Positions 8,813-37,713 of a stretch of 39,521 bases of DNA are shown here, in pieces. Numbering within the stretch: position 1 is the first letter of the stretch; each line of letters begins with the position of its first letter. The notes below the pieces were generated by a model. It did no database searches, was not told where the DNA came from, and saw only the letters and a program-made list of their open reading frames with translations. This stretch comes from Deltaproteobacteria bacterium (GTDB taxonomy: Bacteria; Myxococcota; Myxococcia; Myxococcales; 40CM-4-68-19): assembly GCA_005879535.1 (NCBI GenBank), contig VBKI01000074.1, positions 1 through 39,521 on the forward strand, given 5' to 3'. The translations under genes and the position numbers were made by a program.

Positions 8813-10341
8813 TTGTCGAGCCCCAGCTTTGCCGCCAGCCCGATCCGCTGCAGCTTTCCCGTCGGTCCGCGCGGCAGCTCGGTGACGAAGACGATCTTGT
8901 GCGGCACCTTGTAATGGGCGAGGTGCTTTCCGGCGAATTCCCGCAGCTCACGCTCGGTGGCCGTCTTCCCTTCCTTCAGCACCACCGCGGCCGCCACTTC
9001 CTCGCCCAGGTTCTCCTGCGGCATCCCGAACGTGAGCGCGAGTTGGACCGAGGGATGGTCCATCAGCACGACGTCGACCTCCAGCGGCGAAACCTTCTCG
9101 CCTCCGCGGTTGATCATCTCCTTCAGGCGACCGATGATCCGCAGATACCCGTCCTCGTCGAGCGAGCCTTGGTCGCCCGTGCGGAACCAGCCGTTGACGA
9201 ATGCCTTGGCGTTCGCTTCCGGGTTGTTGACGTAGCCGCGGGTGACGTTGGGACCGCGCACCACGATCTCGCCGCCCGCGCCCTGGGGAAGCAACGTGCC
9301 GGCATCGTCCATGATGCCGACCTCCGGGCCGGCGGCAATGCCGACCGAGCCGGGCTTGCGCGGCCGCGGAGGCAGTGGATTGGAGGCCATCTGGTGAGAC
9401 GCCTCGGTCATTCCATACGCCTCGATCACCGGCGCCTGGAACGCCGCCTCCAGCTCCGCCATCAGGCGAGGGCGCAGCGAGGCCGACGACGAGCGGAGCA
9501 ACCGCAGCCGCCGGCGAGCGAGGATCTCCTTGTTCCGCTCGGCGCGGCCGAGGATCGCGCGATGCATGGTGGGAACGCCAGTGGTCCAGGTGGGGTGAAT
9601 CTCCTCGACCCAGTGGAAGAAACGCAGCGCATTGAACCCCGGGGTCACGAACACCTGCGCTCCCGCGGAGAGCGACGACAGCACACCCGCCACCAGCCCG
9701 TGGATGTGGAAGAGCGGCATGATCTGCAGGCAAGTGTCGTCCGGCGTCAGCGCGAGCGCGGCGGCGATGTGCCTCGCCGAGGCGCTCAAATTCGACTGCG
9801 TGAGCGGGACGAGCTTCGGGCGAGCTGTGGTTCCGCTGGTGTGCAGCAAAAGCGCGATGTCCTCACCCTTCCCGGTGCCCGGCGACTTCGCCTTTCCACG
9901 CAACGTCGGGGGAGCCTCCAGCCGGAAGGCCCCCGCGCCCTTTGCAGGCTCCGGATGCAGCTCGACGACGGGGATGGAGAGCTTCGCCGCCACCTTTCGC
10001 GCTGGCGAGTCCACGCCGGCCTCGACCACGAGGGCCTTCGGGCTCAGGTCGCCCAGGTAGAAGTCGAGCTCGTCCTCGCGGTAGCCGGGATTCAACGGCG
10101 CCGTCGCGACTCCCGTGGCGAGGCACGGGAAGGCAGCGGCCATTTCCGGCCCGTTGCGCAGGACCATCGCGACGCGGTCGCCGCGTCCGATTCCCATCGC
10201 GTTGACGGCGTCGATGGTGCGCGCCGCCAGCTCGCGCAAGGCGTGCCAGGTCAGCGGCTTCGAAGAATCGGGCGCGCTGATGGCGCTCGATCCGGCGGCG
10301 CCCCGCGAGAGCTGCGTCAGAATGGCGTCGGGATCCTGCAC
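8809..10341 (-). CDS. AMP-dependent acyl-CoA synthetase, oxalate/medium-chain type
   Basis: This 510-residue ANL-superfamily ligase activates a carboxylate with ATP to an acyl-adenylate and then a CoA thioester. Visible motifs are the P-loop LLLHTSGTTARPKLVPLTQ, the adenine/hinge region RTGDQGSLDEDGYLRIIGR followed by LKEMINRGGEKVSP, and the C-terminal catalytic lysine in RGPTGKLQR. The N-terminal segment ATAPLNPGYREDELDFYL resembles oxalyl-CoA synthetases of the AAE3 type, but the substrate cannot be read from sequence. It starts with GTG 13 nt after the hydrolase-like gene and overlaps the PanE-like gene by ATGA. Its place in a PHA synthase operon suggests that it activates a hydroxy acid for polymerisation or recycling. 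Confidence 0.88.
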   Translation of the reverse strand: MQDPDAILTQLSRGAAGSSAISAPDSSKPLTWHALRELAARTIDAVNAMGIGRGDRVAMVLRNGPEMAAAFPCLATGVATAPLNPGYREDELDFYLGDLSPKALVVEAGVDSPARKVAAKLSIPVVELHPEPAKGAGAFRLEAPPTLRGKAKSPGTGKGEDIALLLHTSGTTARPKLVPLTQSNLSASARHIAAALALTPDDTCLQIMPLFHIHGLVAGVLSSLSAGAQVFVTPGFNALRFFHWVEEIHPTWTTGVPTMHRAILGRAERNKEILARRRLRLLRSSSASLRPRLMAELEAAFQAPVIEAYGMTEASHQMASNPLPPRPRKPGSVGIAAGPEVGIMDDAGTLLPQGAGGEIVVRGPNVTRGYVNNPEANAKAFVNGWFRTGDQGSLDEDGYLRIIGRLKEMINRGGEKVSPLEVDVVLMDHPSVQLALTFGMPQENLGEEVAAAVVLKEGKTATERELREFAGKHLAHYKVPHKIVFVTELPRGPTGKLQRIGLAAKLGLDK

Positions 10342-31002: not shown

Positions 31003-33003
31003 TCACCGGGGCGGTTGGACGGGGGCGGCCTTCAGATGGGAGTCGAACCAGCCGACGATTCGTTCGACCCGATCGCGCACGTGGTCGGGGCGCTGGATCC
31101 GATGTCCTTCGTCCTCGTAGACGACGAGCTGCGTCTCCACGCCGAGCGCCTTCAATGCGTGCCAGAACTCGTATCCCTGAGGGAGCGGGACCTCGGCGTC
31201 GCGCTCTCCGTGCAACACGAGCGTCGGCGTCCTCACGTTGCGGATGAAGGTGATGGGGCTGGAGCGCGCGTAGACCTGCGGGTCTTCGTACACGCTCTTG
31301 CCGAAGTAGGGCAGCATCCACTGGTCGATGCGATTCTGCCCGTAGTAGCTCTGCCAATCCGCGATGCCGGCGCTGGCCACGGCGGCGGCGAATCGGTGCG
31401 TGCGGGTGACGGCCCACATCGTCATGTAGCCACCGTAGCTGTGGCCGTAGATGCCGACGCGCTTCGGGTCGACGGGAGCGACGCGCACCGCCGCGTCCAC
31501 TCCCCGGACGATGTCGCGAAGATCTCCGTACCCGAAGTCCTTCACGTTGGCGCGGGTGAATGCTTCGCCACCGCCGAACGATCCCCGCGGATTTGGCATC
31601 AGCACGTAGTAGCCCTGGCTCGCGAGGAGGAGCGCCGTCTGCGACCACGACGGGCGCACCGCCGACGCCGGACCGCCGTGGACGATCACCACCATCGGCG
31701 CCTTCGTCCCGAGCGCAGGCGGCTCGCCGGGTGTGAGCAGCCAGCCTTGCACGTCGAAGGCGTCGCTCTTCCAGCGCAGGCTGCGCGCTGCTCCCGCCAC
31801 TGGCCGCAAGGCGGCGTTCCGCTGCGTGACGGGTTGCCACGTTCCCAAGGCGCCGGCGATGACCTCGGGAGCCCGATCGAAGCTCTCGCGCACCGCAGCG
31901 GAGACGTTGCCGTCCCCGGAAAAGCTCCCTCCGACGGACCACTCCACGTGAACGTTCTCTGCACCGCGCCAGAGGATTGTGGGCTTGCCGCCGGCCACCG
32001 GCACGGACGCGAAGGCAGAGGTGCCCTCGATCTGGAGACCGAGGAGGATCTCGCCCGGCTTCAGCCAGCGAAGCGTGGCGGGCGTGCCGCGCAGGCCGGC
32101 CGTCAGGTTGCGCGGCTTCGAGCTTCCGTCCCCCGGCACGACGAAGATGTCTCCGCCGTTGGCGCCGGCGTCGCTCATCAGGCCTTCGATGAAGGCGATC
32201 CGGCTGCCGTCCGGGCTGAAGGTCGGCTCGCAGATCTGCAGGGACGGCGAATGCACGACGCGCGCCGCCCCCGTGTGCGTGTCGATGGAGAACAGCTTCG
32301 CGATCCACCAGTTGTCATCGCCCGACCCATGGGCGCCCGTCGCCGCCACCGCGCCGCCGTCGGGACGCCAGTCGTACTCGTAGAGGAAGAGGTCTGGCGG
32401 CGAGACCGCCCGCAGCGGCGCGCTGCCGTCCGCCGGAACGAGCGCCAGCCGCTGCTCCTTCACCTGCTCGTCCACCACTCCGGTCCGACGCGCCGCCGGC
32501 TTGAGCGGGCCTTGCTCGTCGGCGCCGCCCTCGATGAAGAGGACCGCGATCTCGCGGCCGTCGGGCCGAAACCGCGGCTTGGAGAGATGACCGGAAACTT
32601 GCGTGAGCTGCCGTACCGTCGCGTTGCCGAGGTCGGCGACATAGAGCTGCAGCTGGTGCGGCTGCGCCGCGTCGGAGAGGAAGGCCAGCGATCTCCCGTC
32701 GGGACTGAAGTCGAGGTCGTGTTCGTCGTGCGCCTTGCCGTCTTTTCCGGCGGTGAGGCGCACCGGAGTGGCGGACGGGGTCGTCCGGTCCAGGACCTGG
32801 ACGATCGACTCGTCTGGCGAGGGCCCGTCGGGCGTCTGCACCTGCTCCACCCAGCCGACGCGAGCTCCGTCCCGCGACAGCGCCACGTCATGCAGCTCGA
32901 CGGTCGACTGGAGCGTCCGGAGCACCGACGCCGGATCCGGCCCGGCGGCGGCTGGGAATGCGATGAACGACGCAGCGATGAGAGAGCGCATCGGCCCGAA
33001 CAT
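31003..33003 (-). CDS. Secreted S9-family prolyl oligopeptidase-like peptidase
   Basis: This 666-residue serine peptidase has the dipeptidyl-peptidase/acylaminoacyl-peptidase layout. An N-terminal beta-propeller with WD40-like PD40 repeats (SPDGRSLAFLSDAAQ, SPDGSRIAFIEG) is followed by a C-terminal alpha/beta-hydrolase domain. The triad is Ser in YGHSYGGYMTMW, Asp in LHGERDAEVP and His in YEDEGHRIQ. A short signal-like N-terminus (MRSLIAASFIAFPAAAGP) points to export. Either the ATG at 33003 or the one at 32991 may be used: GGAG is too close to the first and slightly far from the second. It is the last gene of the AraC-headed operon, 12 bp after the VOC gene. Confidence 0.9.
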   Translation of the reverse strand: MFGPMRSLIAASFIAFPAAAGPDPASVLRTLQSTVELHDVALSRDGARVGWVEQVQTPDGPSPDESIVQVLDRTTPSATPVRLTAGKDGKAHDEHDLDFSPDGRSLAFLSDAAQPHQLQLYVADLGNATVRQLTQVSGHLSKPRFRPDGREIAVLFIEGGADEQGPLKPAARRTGVVDEQVKEQRLALVPADGSAPLRAVSPPDLFLYEYDWRPDGGAVAATGAHGSGDDNWWIAKLFSIDTHTGAARVVHSPSLQICEPTFSPDGSRIAFIEGLMSDAGANGGDIFVVPGDGSSKPRNLTAGLRGTPATLRWLKPGEILLGLQIEGTSAFASVPVAGGKPTILWRGAENVHVEWSVGGSFSGDGNVSAAVRESFDRAPEVIAGALGTWQPVTQRNAALRPVAGAARSLRWKSDAFDVQGWLLTPGEPPALGTKAPMVVIVHGGPASAVRPSWSQTALLLASQGYYVLMPNPRGSFGGGEAFTRANVKDFGYGDLRDIVRGVDAAVRVAPVDPKRVGIYGHSYGGYMTMWAVTRTHRFAAAVASAGIADWQSYYGQNRIDQWMLPYFGKSVYEDPQVYARSSPITFIRNVRTPTLVLHGERDAEVPLPQGYEFWHALKALGVETQLVVYEDEGHRIQRPDHVRDRVERIVGWFDSHLKAAPVQPPR

Positions 33004-33015
33004 ACTCCGGCTGGC

Positions 33016-33384
33016 TCAGGTCCACTCGTTGGCGTGGTCCTTCAGCGGCCCCCGCTGCAGATTGATGACGCAGAAACGCTGCCCCGTGGGCGCCTCCAGG
33101 ACCCACCAGGTCTTCACGCGTCCGACCCGGCGCGCGCCAAGCGCTTCCAGCCGCTTCACTTCCGCCTCCTGGTCGTCGGTCTCGATGTCGAGGTGGATGC
33201 GGCTTGGATGATCGACCTTCTGCACGAGCAGGATCGGCTCCTCCGCGCTCCCGGCGAGCTGACGGTACTCACCGTCGGCCCCTTCGATGCGCCGGCCCAG
33301 GGCGGCGCTCCAGAAGCGCGCCGCCTCGTCGGCGTTTTCCGTCCTGCAATCGATCACGAACGTGCTCAGCCTGCTGTGATGCAT
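33016..33384 (-). CDS. VOC-family (glyoxalase-like) protein
   Basis: This 122-residue protein has two beta-alpha-beta-beta-beta modules, as in Glyoxalase_6/VOC proteins: TENADEAARFWSAALGRRI opens the first, and RIHLDIETDDQEAEVKRLEALGA then WVLEAPTGQRFCVI forms the second. VOC proteins bind a metal or small ligands and include resistance proteins that sequester or modify antibiotics. The residue pattern does not identify a ligand. It sits between the amidohydrolase/ABM gene (17 bp gap) and the S9 peptidase in an apparent operon. Confidence 0.82.
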   Translation of the reverse strand: MHHSRLSTFVIDCRTENADEAARFWSAALGRRIEGADGEYRQLAGSAEEPILLVQKVDHPSRIHLDIETDDQEAEVKRLEALGARRVGRVKTWWVLEAPTGQRFCVINLQRGPLKDHANEWT

Positions 33385-33401
33385 GGGACGCCCCTTTCCG
33401 G

Positions 33402-35009
33402 TCACGGCACCCAGGCCGCGTCGAAATGAACGGACTGCTCGTCGTGGCGCGTGAGCAGATGCGCCGCCTTGGGATGGATCACGGACTTCGTCCGGCCCTT
33501 GCCGGCGAACTCCTCGATCGCAGCCCACGAATCCCAGGTGGTGATGGTCACGAACTCCACCTCGTCGCCCGCCGCCCGCCGCAGCACCCACGAGCCGCCG
33601 TAGCCCTTGATGCGGTGGATGCCGGGCAGGATTTCGTCGCGCAAAAGGCGATTGTACTCCTCGGCGTCCTTCGTTTTCGTCCACCCATGCCAGACCCGCA
33701 TGATCATCGGATGCTCTCCCTTTGGCGCCGGGACTGATGCCCGCGCGTCCTTGACGACCGCCCCTTCCTTCATCACGAAAACGACGTTCTCCAGCGCGGA
33801 CACGTCGCGCGTCGGGTCGCCCCGGACGGCGACGAGATCGGCGACCTTCCCTTTCGCGATCGATCCCGCCTCGTCGGCATGTCCGAGCATCTCCTGGGCG
33901 TTGATGGTCGCCGCCTGGATCGCCTGCAGGGGCGTCATCCCTCCGCGAACGAGAGCGGCGAACTCGCGCGGCAGCAGGTCCGGCGAGTTGTCCAGGCCGA
34001 AGACGATCCGCAGGTGGTGCGCGATCGCGCGCTTGAAGGCGGGCCCCTGTGCCGAGATGATCCTGCGAACCTTGGCGAGCATGACCGGCTCGAGTCCCAG
34101 CTTCTCTCCCTGCTCGGCGCCGTACTGGAACGTGTAGAGCGTCGGCACCAGCCAGGTGCCGCGCTTTTCCATCAGCGCCGCGCCCTCGTCGTCGAGCATG
34201 GTGCCGTGCTCGATGGAGTCCACGCCGGCGCGTACCGCCGCCTTGATCCCGCCGGTTCCCTCTGCGTGCACCATCACCCGCCGTCCGGCGCGATGCGCGA
34301 CTTCGACCGCCCGGGCGATCTGCTCGTCGCTCAGCTCCTCGCGGGTATAGTCGCTGAACGGATCGACGATGCCACCGGTGCCCATCAGCTTGATCCAGTC
34401 GGCGCCGTATTTCAGGTCGCGGCGGACCACGGTCGCGACCGCATCGGGAGTGTCGGCGAGATTGAAACGGTCGAGGCGCTGATCGGCGGCGAGCTGGTTC
34501 GCGTCGCCGTGCCCGCCAGTGACCGTGACGTAGCTTCCTGCAGCGTAGATGCGCGGCCCCTGGATGAAGCCGCGCGCGACGCCTTCCCGGAGCGCGAACT
34601 GGCCGTAAGCGCCGTCGATCTCTCCGGCGTCGCGAACCGTGGTGAACCCGCGGTCGAGCCATTCCTTGAGGTTGCTCACTCCCCAGATGGCGCCCTGCGC
34701 AGACGACATCCGCAGCGAGCCGATGGCGGAGATGTCCTTGAGGTTGCCGAGCAGGTGCGCGTGGCAGTCGGCGAAACCGGGGAGCACCGAGAGGTCTCCG
34801 AGATCGATGATCGCGGCATCCGGAGCGCCGGAGCGCGCCTGCGCGAACGGCAGGACAGACTCGATGCGGCCGCCGGCGACGACGATCCCCTGGTCCGCCG
34901 ACCAGGTTCCTTTCTGCACGTCGAGGACGCGGGCCGCGCGCACCAAGGCGCGCGGCTCGGCCGCCGCCGCTGCGGCCCACAAGGACAACAGGACGATTGC
35001 GCTGCGCAT
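33402..35009 (-). CDS. Exported amidohydrolase fused to a C-terminal ABM-like domain
   Basis: This 535-residue protein has a signal peptide (MRSAIVLLSLWAAAAAA) and an imidazolonepropionase/Xaa-Pro-dipeptidase-like metal-dependent amidohydrolase domain to about residue 423. Metal-site motifs are CHAH, the Lys in WIKLMGTGG, VMVHAEG, SIEHGTM and the Asp in FGLDNSPD. From Met435 a second unit (MIMRVWHGWTKTKDAEEYN to the end) is a complete antibiotic-biosynthesis-monooxygenase-like ferredoxin-fold protein of about 101 residues, normally encoded separately. The linker DNA holds a good ribosome binding site right before Met435, so the fusion may have arisen by loss of a stop codon and both forms may be made. 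The gene follows the AraC regulator by 7 bp. If fused and exported, the ABM domain is extracytoplasmic. Confidence 0.85.
   Translation of the reverse strand: MRSAIVLLSLWAAAAAAEPRALVRAARVLDVQKGTWSADQGIVVAGGRIESVLPFAQARSGAPDAAIIDLGDLSVLPGFADCHAHLLGNLKDISAIGSLRMSSAQGAIWGVSNLKEWLDRGFTTVRDAGEIDGAYGQFALREGVARGFIQGPRIYAAGSYVTVTGGHGDANQLAADQRLDRFNLADTPDAVATVVRRDLKYGADWIKLMGTGGIVDPFSDYTREELSDEQIARAVEVAHRAGRRVMVHAEGTGGIKAAVRAGVDSIEHGTMLDDEGAALMEKRGTWLVPTLYTFQYGAEQGEKLGLEPVMLAKVRRIISAQGPAFKRAIAHHLRIVFGLDNSPDLLPREFAALVRGGMTPLQAIQAATINAQEMLGHADEAGSIAKGKVADLVAVRGDPTRDVSALENVVFVMKEGAVVKDARASVPAPKGEHPMIMRVWHGWTKTKDAEEYNRLLRDEILPGIHRIKGYGGSWVLRRAAGDEVEFVTITTWDSWAAIEEFAGKGRTKSVIHPKAAHLLTRHDEQSVHFDAAWVP
33707..33723 (-). 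promoter_or_regulatory. Internal ribosome binding site and start codon inside the fused gene
   Basis: Within the linker between the two domains the minus strand reads AAAGGGAGAG (33723-33714), six spacer bases, then ATG (33707-33705) in frame. Translation from here would give a free 101-residue ABM-like protein without signal peptide, ending at 33402. The codons involved (Pro-Lys-Gly-Glu-His-Pro) do not force such a purine run. Confidence 0.55.
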
Positions 35010-35016
35010 CGCCGCC

Positions 35017-35856
35017 CTATGCGACGTCGGACGACGTCCCCGCTTGCGCTTTCTTGCGCAGCAGCGAGGGCGCAGTCCCGAACCGGCGCCGGAACGAGCG
35101 GATGAAGTGGCTGAGGTTTCCGAAACCGACGGCGTAGCAGGTGGTGGTGACGCTCTCGCCGTCGAGCAGCATGGAGCGGGCTCGATCGAGGCGGACGTCG
35201 CGCAGCAGCCGGTGCGGCGGCGCTCCGATCAGCGACCGGAACACGCGCGCGAAATGGAAAGGGCTCATCCCCACGGACGACGCAAGCGAGGCGAGCGTGT
35301 GTGGCTCGTCGGAGTGCAGAAGGATCCTCTCGTGCGCCAGCTCGACGCGGGCAGCGTGGCGGCGGAGCTGGAGCTCGTCGTAGATGCGATGCGGCAGCTG
35401 CGGACGGACCGCCGCCTCGATCAGCTCCGTCGTCCAGGAATCGAGCGCCGCGACGCTGCGGCGCTGCAGGATGCGATCGAGTTGCAGGCGGAGGAACGCG
35501 AGCCGGTTGCCGGGATGGAACACGGGCACGTGTGCGGTTCCCGCGAGCCAGCCCTCGCGCTCGATCTCGCGCTCGAAGCCGTCGCGAAAGCGGATCGTCA
35601 TGCACGTATCCGCGGGCACGCCTTCGAAGTGGACGTACCTTTGGACGGTGCGCGGATGCCAGGCGAACGCGGCACCGCGCCTGAGGCGCCAGAACCGCCT
35701 CCCGATGCCCAGACCGAACTCGCCGGAATCGACGAAGTTGATGCAGTAGTGGTCGCAGACCTCCTCCGCCGTCCCCGCGGGCACCGGACCGCCGCCATGA
35801 TCGAAGCGCGAGACGAGAACGCTGGGAGTCTCGAGAAGGGCCTGCATCGAGCTCAT
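35017..35856 (-). CDS. AraC-family transcriptional regulator
   Basis: This 279-residue regulator has an N-terminal cupin-like sensing half (YCINFVDSGEFGLGIGRRFWRLRRGAAFAWHP) and a C-terminal double helix-turn-helix. The first HTH is LASLASSVGMSPFHFARVFRSLIG and the second is CYAVGFGNLSHFIRSFRRRFG followed by PSLLRKK. The start is placed at ATG 35856 (MSSMQALLE); an upstream in-frame ATG at 35907 would run into the divergent promoter region. It lies 7 bp before the amidohydrolase and is divergent from the secreted ABM-like gene, so it probably controls both units in response to a small molecule. Confidence 0.88.
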   Translation of the reverse strand: MSSMQALLETPSVLVSRFDHGGGPVPAGTAEEVCDHYCINFVDSGEFGLGIGRRFWRLRRGAAFAWHPRTVQRYVHFEGVPADTCMTIRFRDGFEREIEREGWLAGTAHVPVFHPGNRLAFLRLQLDRILQRRSVAALDSWTTELIEAAVRPQLPHRIYDELQLRRHAARVELAHERILLHSDEPHTLASLASSVGMSPFHFARVFRSLIGAPPHRLLRDVRLDRARSMLLDGESVTTTCYAVGFGNLSHFIRSFRRRFGTAPSLLRKKAQAGTSSDVA

Positions 35857-35868
35857 GCCCGGACGATA

Positions 35869-35927
35869 GCAAGCGCGTGCCTCCGGCTCCAGCGCCGGGC
35901 AGAGCAAGAAACCGCAAGCTTACGTGC
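35869..35927. promoter_or_regulatory. Possible AraC half-sites in the divergent promoter region
   Basis: Two related words in the same orientation lie in the 106-bp gap: GCAAGCGCGTGC (35869-35880) and GCAAGCTTACGTGC (35914-35927), spaced 45 bp apart. AraC-type regulators often bind direct repeats. The copies differ by a two-base insertion, so the case is weak. Confidence 0.25.
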
Positions 35928-35962: not shown

Positions 35963-36349
35963 ATGTCCGTCAAGGTCGCGATTCTGGCAATGGTGATCGG
36001 CGCGGTTCCGGCGGCGCCCCGGAGCGGTGGCACGACGGCCCGGATCGCGCGCGTCTGGAACGGCCAGGTCTCGTCCGCGCGCGCTGACGAGTACGAGCGC
36101 TACCTCTACGACAACGGGATCAAGGCGTTGCGGCGCACGCGAGGCAATCTCGGCGCGCAGATGTTCCGGCGCGCCGCCGGCGAACGCGCATATTTCGTGG
36201 TCATCTCGTACTGGCCCTCGGAGGAGTCCATCCGGGCCTGGGCCGGCGAAAATCTGACGAAGACGCGCATGTTGCCACGCGATCCGGAGTTTCTCATCGA
36301 CCCGGAGACCGAGGTGAAGCACTACGTCATCGCCGCGGACGAGCGGTGA
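35963..36349 (+). CDS. Small exported ABM-like (dimeric ferredoxin-fold) protein
   Basis: This 128-residue protein has a signal-like N-terminus (MSVKVAILAMVIGAVPAAP) and one antibiotic-biosynthesis-monooxygenase-like domain: TARIARVWNGQVSSARADEYERYL, a middle strand YFVVISYWPSEESIRAWAG, and an ending EVKHYVIAADER. It shares the opening 'RVW.G.......YE.YL' and the 'W.S...I..(A/W)AG' pattern with the C-terminal domain of the fused amidohydrolase across the AraC gene. Such domains may be cofactor-free oxygenases, haem-handling proteins or stress proteins. The ATG at 35963 follows GGAGGTG. Its stop overlaps the next start (GTGA). Confidence 0.78.
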   Translation: MSVKVAILAMVIGAVPAAPRSGGTTARIARVWNGQVSSARADEYERYLYDNGIKALRRTRGNLGAQMFRRAAGERAYFVVISYWPSEESIRAWAGENLTKTRMLPRDPEFLIDPETEVKHYVIAADER

Positions 36350-37713
36350 GAACGCTGCGACTGCTCCTGCTGCTCTGCCTGGTTCCAGCGCTCGCGGGCG
36401 CGGTGGATGAGGCGGAGTTTGCCCGGCGCAGGCGCGCGCTCATGGAGCAGATTCCCGACGGCATCGTGCTGCTGCGATCCAGCTCGGCGATGACGTGGGA
36501 GGCTTCGTCCTTCCGCCAGGATCCCGCCTTCTATTACTTCACCGGCCTTGCCAACGCTCACCAGGCGATCCTCGCGATCGACGGCGGTGCGAAGGAAACG
36601 TGGCTGTTCGCGGGACCCGCCCCCGAGTCCACGCTCTTCGTCCCCGATCTTCGCGGGCTCGAGTCGATCTTCGTGGCGCCCGGAGCAGAATCAGAACACG
36701 CCCTCGGACTCGAGCACGTCGTCCCTTGGGACGAACTGACCGGCGTCGTCGGATCGAGGCGCACGCAGGATGGCAAGGTCGCGCTGTATGTCGACAGCGG
36801 CGGCTTCGCCGGCGCTCTCTCGCTGGGCGGGAATACGCCCAAGGGCGTACCTCCGGTCGAGCCGTCCTGGGCCGTCTGGCGGAAAGTCGTCCACGATCTC
36901 TGGCCCGACGCGGAGATCAAGGATGCAACGCCGATCCTAGACTCGGTCCGGGCAGTGAAGTCGCCGGCGGAGATTGCGCTGCTGAAGAATGCGGCGGACG
37001 TGACGCTGCCGGCTTTCTGGAGCGCGGTCGCCGCCATCAGAACGGGAAGGCGCCAGCGCGCGGTGGAGGCAGCAGTGGTCTCGGCATGCGTGGAAGCAGG
37101 AGCGGAAGGGCCTTCGTTCTGGCCCTGGATTCGTAGCGGACCGTCGGCGGGACCGGCTTCTCTCTTCGAGGCGCTCGCGGACTACCACAACCTCGATCGC
37201 GCGATGATGGGCGGCGAGCTGGTCCGCGTCGACCTGGGCTGCGAGCTTCGTTTGTACAAGGCGGACTACGGCCGGACGATCCCCGTCTCCGGCCGATTCG
37301 ACGAGGGTCAGCGCGAAGTTCTCGAGCTCCTCGTCGGGGCGTACCGGGCGGGCGTGGCGCAGATGCGTCCCGGGGCAAACCAGGCAGGTGTCTTTCGTGC
37401 GACGGCCGCCTATGTCATCGAGCGGCGAGACCGCCTGAAGACGCCATTGGCACGGGAAGCGGCGGCAACGGTCGACGAGCGCACCGCGTTCTTCCTCCAC
37501 GGCATCGGCCTCGATCTGATCGAGACGAGTCCGCCGGTGTTCCGGGCTGGCAACGTCATCTGCTATGAGCCGCGGTTGACGGCGCGTGATCAATCGTTCT
37601 TCGTCGAGGATACGTTCCTGATCACGGCCAGCGGGGCGGAACGGATCAGCCCCGAGCTGCCGTACACGGCCGAGGGGCTGGAGAAGGAGATCGCGAGGCG
37701 ACGACGAAAATGA
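36346..37713 (+). CDS. Exported M24-family Xaa-Pro aminopeptidase
   Basis: This 455-residue aminopeptidase P-type metallopeptidase has a signal peptide (MRTLRLLLLLCLVPALAGA; GTG start). It also has the N-terminal AMP_N creatinase-like domain (FARRRRALMEQIPDGIVLLRSS, FYYFTGLANAHQAIL) and the pita-bread catalytic domain. Metal ligands are visible as Asp in VRVDLGCE, Asp in KADYGRTIP, His in FFLHGIGLD, Glu in VICYEPRL and Glu in FFVEDTFLIT. It removes N-terminal residues before proline. It overlaps both neighbours (GTGA upstream, ATGA downstream), so it is co-translated with the ABM-like protein and the propeller/phosphoesterase. Confidence 0.9.
   Translation: MRTLRLLLLLCLVPALAGAVDEAEFARRRRALMEQIPDGIVLLRSSSAMTWEASSFRQDPAFYYFTGLANAHQAILAIDGGAKETWLFAGPAPESTLFVPDLRGLESIFVAPGAESEHALGLEHVVPWDELTGVVGSRRTQDGKVALYVDSGGFAGALSLGGNTPKGVPPVEPSWAVWRKVVHDLWPDAEIKDATPILDSVRAVKSPAEIALLKNAADVTLPAFWSAVAAIRTGRRQRAVEAAVVSACVEAGAEGPSFWPWIRSGPSAGPASLFEALADYHNLDRAMMGGELVRVDLGCELRLYKADYGRTIPVSGRFDEGQREVLELLVGAYRAGVAQMRPGANQAGVFRATAAYVIERRDRLKTPLAREAAATVDERTAFFLHGIGLDLIETSPPVFRAGNVICYEPRLTARDQSFFVEDTFLITASGAERISPELPYTAEGLEKEIARRRRK

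Follow-up and report, generated by a model that had tools for sequence, protein, structure and literature searches.

An amidohydrolase–ABM gene fusion that keeps a Shine-Dalgarno-like sequence and a start codon at its domain joint

The gene at 33402–35009 on the minus strand of contig VBKI01000074.1 from a Deltaproteobacteria bacterium (the window, i.e. the whole 39,521-nucleotide stretch of DNA that was analysed) is almost certainly a genuine fusion, in which an exported-type amidohydrolase is joined in frame to a complete antibiotic biosynthesis monooxygenase (ABM)-like domain. An internal Shine-Dalgarno (SD)-like sequence and an ATG, Met435, are present where the second domain begins, and both are also found in a fused gene from a second genus of the same family (genome G008, contig VBKL01000064.1). 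We regard it as marginally probable that two genes merged here by loss of a stop codon, that the ribosome binding site and start codon of the second were retained, and that the merged gene gives both a full-length exported protein and an internally initiated free ABM protein. The pairing of an amidohydrolase with an ABM domain, with a retained internal start, is the new element; the open-licence papers and genome collections searched contained no previous account of these two domains together. The parts of the gene are as follows.

33402–35009, minus strand: amidohydrolase–ABM fusion gene, 535 aa, stop codon at 33402–33404, taken from the list of open reading frames
34956–35009, minus strand: predicted Sec signal peptide, residues ~1–18 (MRSAIVLLSLWAAAAAAE), from the hydrophobic N-terminus in the sequence
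33738–34946, minus strand: amidohydrolase domain, residues 22–424, from PDB relatives and motif positions
33708–33737, minus strand: linker, residues 425–434, not conserved with G008 in the codon alignment
33714–33723, minus strand: internal Shine-Dalgarno-like sequence AAAGGGAGAG (in G008, CAGGGAGGT), from the sequence, duplex energies and a recoding control
33705–33707, minus strand: internal ATG, Met435, aligning with the start codon of standalone ABM genes
33405–33707, minus strand: ABM/IsdG-fold domain, 101 aa, from AF2 and Foldseek, ~11.4 kDa if made alone

The fusion and its two halves

From its ATG the reading frame continues without interruption along 535 aa, and the product is ordered as predicted signal peptide, cog1228-type amidohydrolase (residues ~22–424), 10-residue linker and complete ABM/IsdG-fold domain. 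An open frame across such a short linker is not by itself strong evidence, as a short GC-rich stretch is often open by chance; the stronger support for the fusion comes from purifying selection on both halves and from the shared architecture. Between the window and G008, dN/dS is 0.17–0.19 for the amidohydrolase half and 0.22 for the ABM half, values that indicate purifying selection, with both halves constrained. The G008 gene is fused in frame in the same way and is 78% identical over its full length, and its linker is longer by exactly one codon, so that the frame has been kept through an insertion or deletion in two assemblies. That the fusion could be an assembly or sequencing error, with a stop codon removed or the frame shifted in the linker, was a worry attached to the original prediction, and both the single draft assembly of the window and the standalone occurrence of the two halves as a rule would fit it; the independent G008 assembly, from another genus and with its one-codon difference, answers this worry and makes such an error very improbable. 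The two sequences from the window and G008 are the only fused ones known. A further genome from the same genus as the window (G006) encodes an amidohydrolase that is 94% identical, on a contig that ends at residue 248.

The amidohydrolase half matches Pfam Amidohydro_1 (PF01979) over residues 75–419 with an E-value of 1.6e-47, and its 162.9 bits are well beyond the cut-off of 25. Among solved structures it is closest to the Caulobacter carboxypeptidase Cc2672 (3MTW, E 2.7e-75), the Zn-dependent arginine carboxypeptidase 3BE7 and the Xaa-Pro dipeptidase 2QS8; these share the domain at fusion residues 22–420 and the metal-ligand motifs, they end at about residue 420, and none of them spans the C-terminal ABM half. 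Motif position and the 3MTW alignment point to H83, H85, K207, H248, H268 and D340 as candidate metal ligands, which complete the HxH, Lys, His, His and Asp set. Hydrolysis of peptides or amino-acid conjugates is the likely activity. The score against NF051886, the NCBI model for Xaa-Pro dipeptidase of the Caulobacter type, is 369.1 bits against a curated cut-off of 500, i.e. that of a related protein which is not a member by this rule, so that the assignment stops short of an exact substrate. The signal-like N-terminus is also present in G008 and in the standalone orthologues (L168, L188 and L189), so the cog1228 orthologues resemble the fusion in their exported-type N-termini.

For the unit that begins at Met435, the AF2 model has a mean pLDDT of 95.4, and its best PDB matches in Foldseek are IsdG/IsdI and ABM entries (E 3e-5, TM ~0.7). 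The Pfam ABM family (PF03992) scores only 14.0 bits on the fused domain alone (E 0.059), which is under the gathering cut-off of 23.1; 32 of 51 aligned relatives match this family at E<=1, with a best E-value of 5.8e-9, and plasmid relatives that are 51–52% identical to the fused domain are annotated as antibiotic biosynthesis monooxygenase. Homology to members, together with a predicted fold of the dimeric alpha/beta-barrel type, would therefore place the fused domain in PF03992. The structures of IsdG/IsdI, MhuD and ActVA-Orf6 have the same fold by prediction, share 11–20% identity with the fused domain in the listed structural matches, and belong to proteins with a heme or quinone chemistry of their own. 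No heme-degrading, IsdG-like identity is claimed for the fused domain, as the match is in fold alone and sequence identity is low; dimerisation or small-molecule oxidation may be its role. When the full-length protein is modelled, linker residues 417–433 fall below a pLDDT of 50 and the ABM half stays high, so that in the model the latter is an autonomous domain on a flexible tether. Residues 84–184 of this full-length model are poorly predicted, the alignment being shallow, and only its linker and ABM parts were used.

Considering where the two halves came from, the fusion is, on sequence comparison, the derived state, two whole genes having been joined in frame, because relatives of each half stand alone and their ends match the joint. 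Three standalone amidohydrolase orthologues (59, 56 and 55% identity), one in a Blastocatellia genome and all within the phylum of that genome, end level with the start of the linker and are not followed by an ABM. All of the other ABM relatives fetched (79/79) are likewise standalone and start at the equivalent of Met435; they are 40–60% identical and span many bacterial and archaeal phyla. The drop in GC3 from 0.88 in the flanking domains to 0.60 in the linker of the window gene and 0.64 in that of G008 is consistent with the linker being former non-coding, intergenic DNA. Of the original proposal, that the ABM unit had been a separate gene whose upstream stop was lost, the joining of once-separate genes is thus borne out by the standalone relatives; the intermediate it implied, a split amidohydrolase–stop–ABM tandem, was not found in 80 ABM loci, in 27 of their genomes, in 297 genomes of the phylum of genome G214 or in the window's own class, and it is from the C-termini of the standalone amidohydrolases that we infer the stop loss itself. 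Other long open frames upstream of ABM genes, at L137, L160 and L108, were considered and rejected as fusions; going by their translations, they read through non-coding or out-of-frame DNA.

The proposed internal start at Met435

Read along the minus strand, AAAGGGAGAG (33723–33714) is followed by the six nucleotides CATCCG and then by the ATG (33707–33705), which bears out the earlier claim that the ABM unit begins at Met435 with six-base spacing; a longer stretch 5' of Met435 reads CCAAAGGGAGAGCATCCG in the window and GCACAGGGAGGTCCGGCG in G008. The linker residues are PKGEHP in the window and AQGGPA in G008, AGGGAG and its spacing are common to both, and the internal SD is stronger in G008, with GGGAGGT. 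Pairing energies were calculated with an assumed anti-SD, the 16S rRNA being absent from the window's assembly, and the predicted pairing at Met435 is −7.7 kcal/mol in the window and −11.3 in G008, with weaker values at the genes' own starts (−3.0 and −2.1, respectively). For the standalone ABM relatives the median SD energy is −6.9. A comparison set of 805 internal in-frame ATGs, drawn from 136 genes of the window's genome, has 2.1% that are as good as the window's −7.7 and none as good as the −11.3 of G008, and in each of the two genes the SD of Met435 ranks first among the nine internal ATGs that are conserved in both.

When the six residues before the Met were recoded with random synonymous codons, the window value was matched in 38% of cases and the G008 value in 1.8%. 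The first figure means that the window's SD alone is unremarkable for a K–G–E linker, and what gives the internal SD its weight is the G008 site, together with the lack of conservation among the linker residues. Coincidence, i.e. an SD-like match produced by a purine-rich Lys–Gly–Glu linker that happens to precede a domain-starting Met, would fit that figure and the roughly 2% of internal ATGs that are equally good, but it is an unlikely explanation, as Met435 is the residue at which standalone members of the family begin and the stronger G008 site is built from different residues. The RNA structure around the internal start was nothing unusual (fold z-score −0.45), and the start is not marked by any further signal.

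A second alternative accepts the fusion as true and regards the internal ribosome binding site as a mere relic, such that translation yields the full-length exported protein alone, to which the ABM domain contributes, for instance by dimerisation or by handling of the substrate. The conserved fusion frame and domains would suit this, as would an SD that is ordinary for its residues in the window, the conservation in genus g22 of another fusion (an ABM N-terminal to an alpha/beta hydrolase) and the occurrence of exported ABM-like proteins in the order. A relic would, however, be expected to decay, yet the SD of G008 is near perfect despite the changed linker residues. We consider the relic explanation possible, if not probable, and use of the internal start at Met435 today is, on the strength of the sequence comparison, about evenly balanced. 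The claim that an internal ribosome binding site has been kept holds in so far as the SD and the ABM start are also found in the second genus.

A proposed merger and its precedents

In the merger that we favour, an ancestor of the family would have carried an exported cog1228-type amidohydrolase gene and a small cytosolic ABM-fold gene, which merged through loss of the intervening stop codon and left the ribosome binding site and start codon of the ABM gene inside the merged gene, within a disordered linker. Translation of the full length, starting just behind the AraC-family regulator gene described below and probably coupled to it, would give an exported amidohydrolase that carries an ABM domain; coupling is proposed in view of the weak SD at the fusion gene's own start. 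A ribosome that initiates at Met435 would make a 101-aa ABM protein, free and unexported, with no signal peptide. We infer from this arrangement all of the steps from translation onward, namely export, initiation at the internal site and the function of either product. We suggest only tentatively that one gene serves two compartments, with the ABM domain tethered to the exported amidohydrolase outside the cytoplasm and free in the cytosol, and that selection has kept the internal start. G008 has no match to this ABM subfamily apart from the fused copy, so that there an internal start would be the sole source of the free, ancestral form. Most genomes of the family are without this ABM, which means that the free protein is not essential in the group. 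A decayed remnant of the fused ABM end (EVEFVTITTWESWAAIEEFAGK...FDAVWVP, ~84% over 25 residues) was observed at 1366–1602 of L065 in G002, a genome from the same genus as the window, with no amidohydrolase detectable beside it.

The nearest precedent is in type III secretion, where an internal start in the FliM–FliN-like gene SctQ/YscQ yields a FliN-like C-terminal protein that is needed for assembly (PMC4295842). SctQ/YscQ/SpaO are similarly fused genes with an internal start that is kept and a C-terminal part resembling a protein that elsewhere has its own gene (FliN), and it is the C-terminal third that supplies their short product (PMC4295842). For the amidohydrolase–ABM gene, the internal SD and start are kept in one other fused relative, G008, which makes two sequences in total, and the C-terminal part is homologous to a separately encoded family from its first Met. 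The systems differ in that both SctQ-type products have been shown, are cytosolic and bind each other, whereas the amidohydrolase–ABM products are predicted and would occupy different compartments. The standalone ABM-like proteins that begin MISRIWHGWT, annotated as antibiotic biosynthesis monooxygenase, reach 60% identity with the fused domain, share its Met start and mostly have an SD; they differ from it as separate genes outside any amidohydrolase frame, in 79/79 of those fetched.

The fusion would be a clean natural case of two operon genes merged, with the start signal of the second surviving and relatives of both halves known unfused. Use of the internal start would mean that the merger altered where a protein acts while its old form was kept. 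Annotation pipelines would be expected to give the 535-aa product only.

Neighbouring genes and other ABM proteins of the order

Three neighbouring genes bear on the surroundings of the fusion.

35017–35907, minus strand: AraC-family regulator gene (Pfam HTH_18, E 6.6e-24), 7 nt upstream of the fusion gene
33016–33384, minus strand: glyoxalase-like gene (Pfam Glyoxalase_6, E 2.3e-23), 17 nt downstream of the fusion gene
35966–36349, plus strand: second ABM-like protein, with a signal-like N-terminus and outside the fusion (PF03992, E 1.6e-5)

An AraC regulator also lies 5' of the fusion in G008 with the same 7-nt gap (on L069 the regulator ends at 10112 and the fusion starts at 10104), and the two regulators are 59% identical. 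The sequence after the stop codon of the G008 fusion holds no glyoxalase-like gene at the equivalent place.

The second ABM-like protein of the window is 34% identical to the fused ABM domain, is encoded ~1 kb from the fusion gene, and has the SD GGAGGT at its start (−12.6). Four genomes of family f6 encode ABM-like homologues (L191–L194), 41–51% identical to it, whose N-termini resemble signal or lipobox sequences. Several genomes of genus g22, which belongs to the same order, share a conserved 372-aa protein in which an ABM-like domain is fused to an alpha/beta hydrolase (L048, L049, L057, L062 and L195–L197); it resembles the amidohydrolase–ABM gene in joining a related ABM to a hydrolase, and differs in that the ABM is N-terminal, the hydrolase is a different one and there is no signal-like N-terminus, so that no second start is needed. 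The expectation that an exported ABM domain tethered to an amidohydrolase would be unusual is weakened by these proteins: as to export, by the window's second ABM-like protein and its L191–L194 homologues with their signal-like N-termini, and as to tethering, by the g22 fusion.

The gene for the second ABM-like protein overlaps by 4 nt (GTGA) with an exported-looking M24 aminopeptidase P gene at 36346–37713 on the plus strand, and an S9 peptidase gene is present at 31003–33003 on the minus strand. The locus holds, in total, three exported-type peptidase-like enzymes (S9, M24 and the amidohydrolase) and two ABM domains. The glyoxalase-like frame is open for 654 codons (33016–34980, minus strand), and so covers the greater part of the fusion gene, though in a different frame; this is most likely an artefact of GC-rich sequence, because the family match covers 33016–33384 only.
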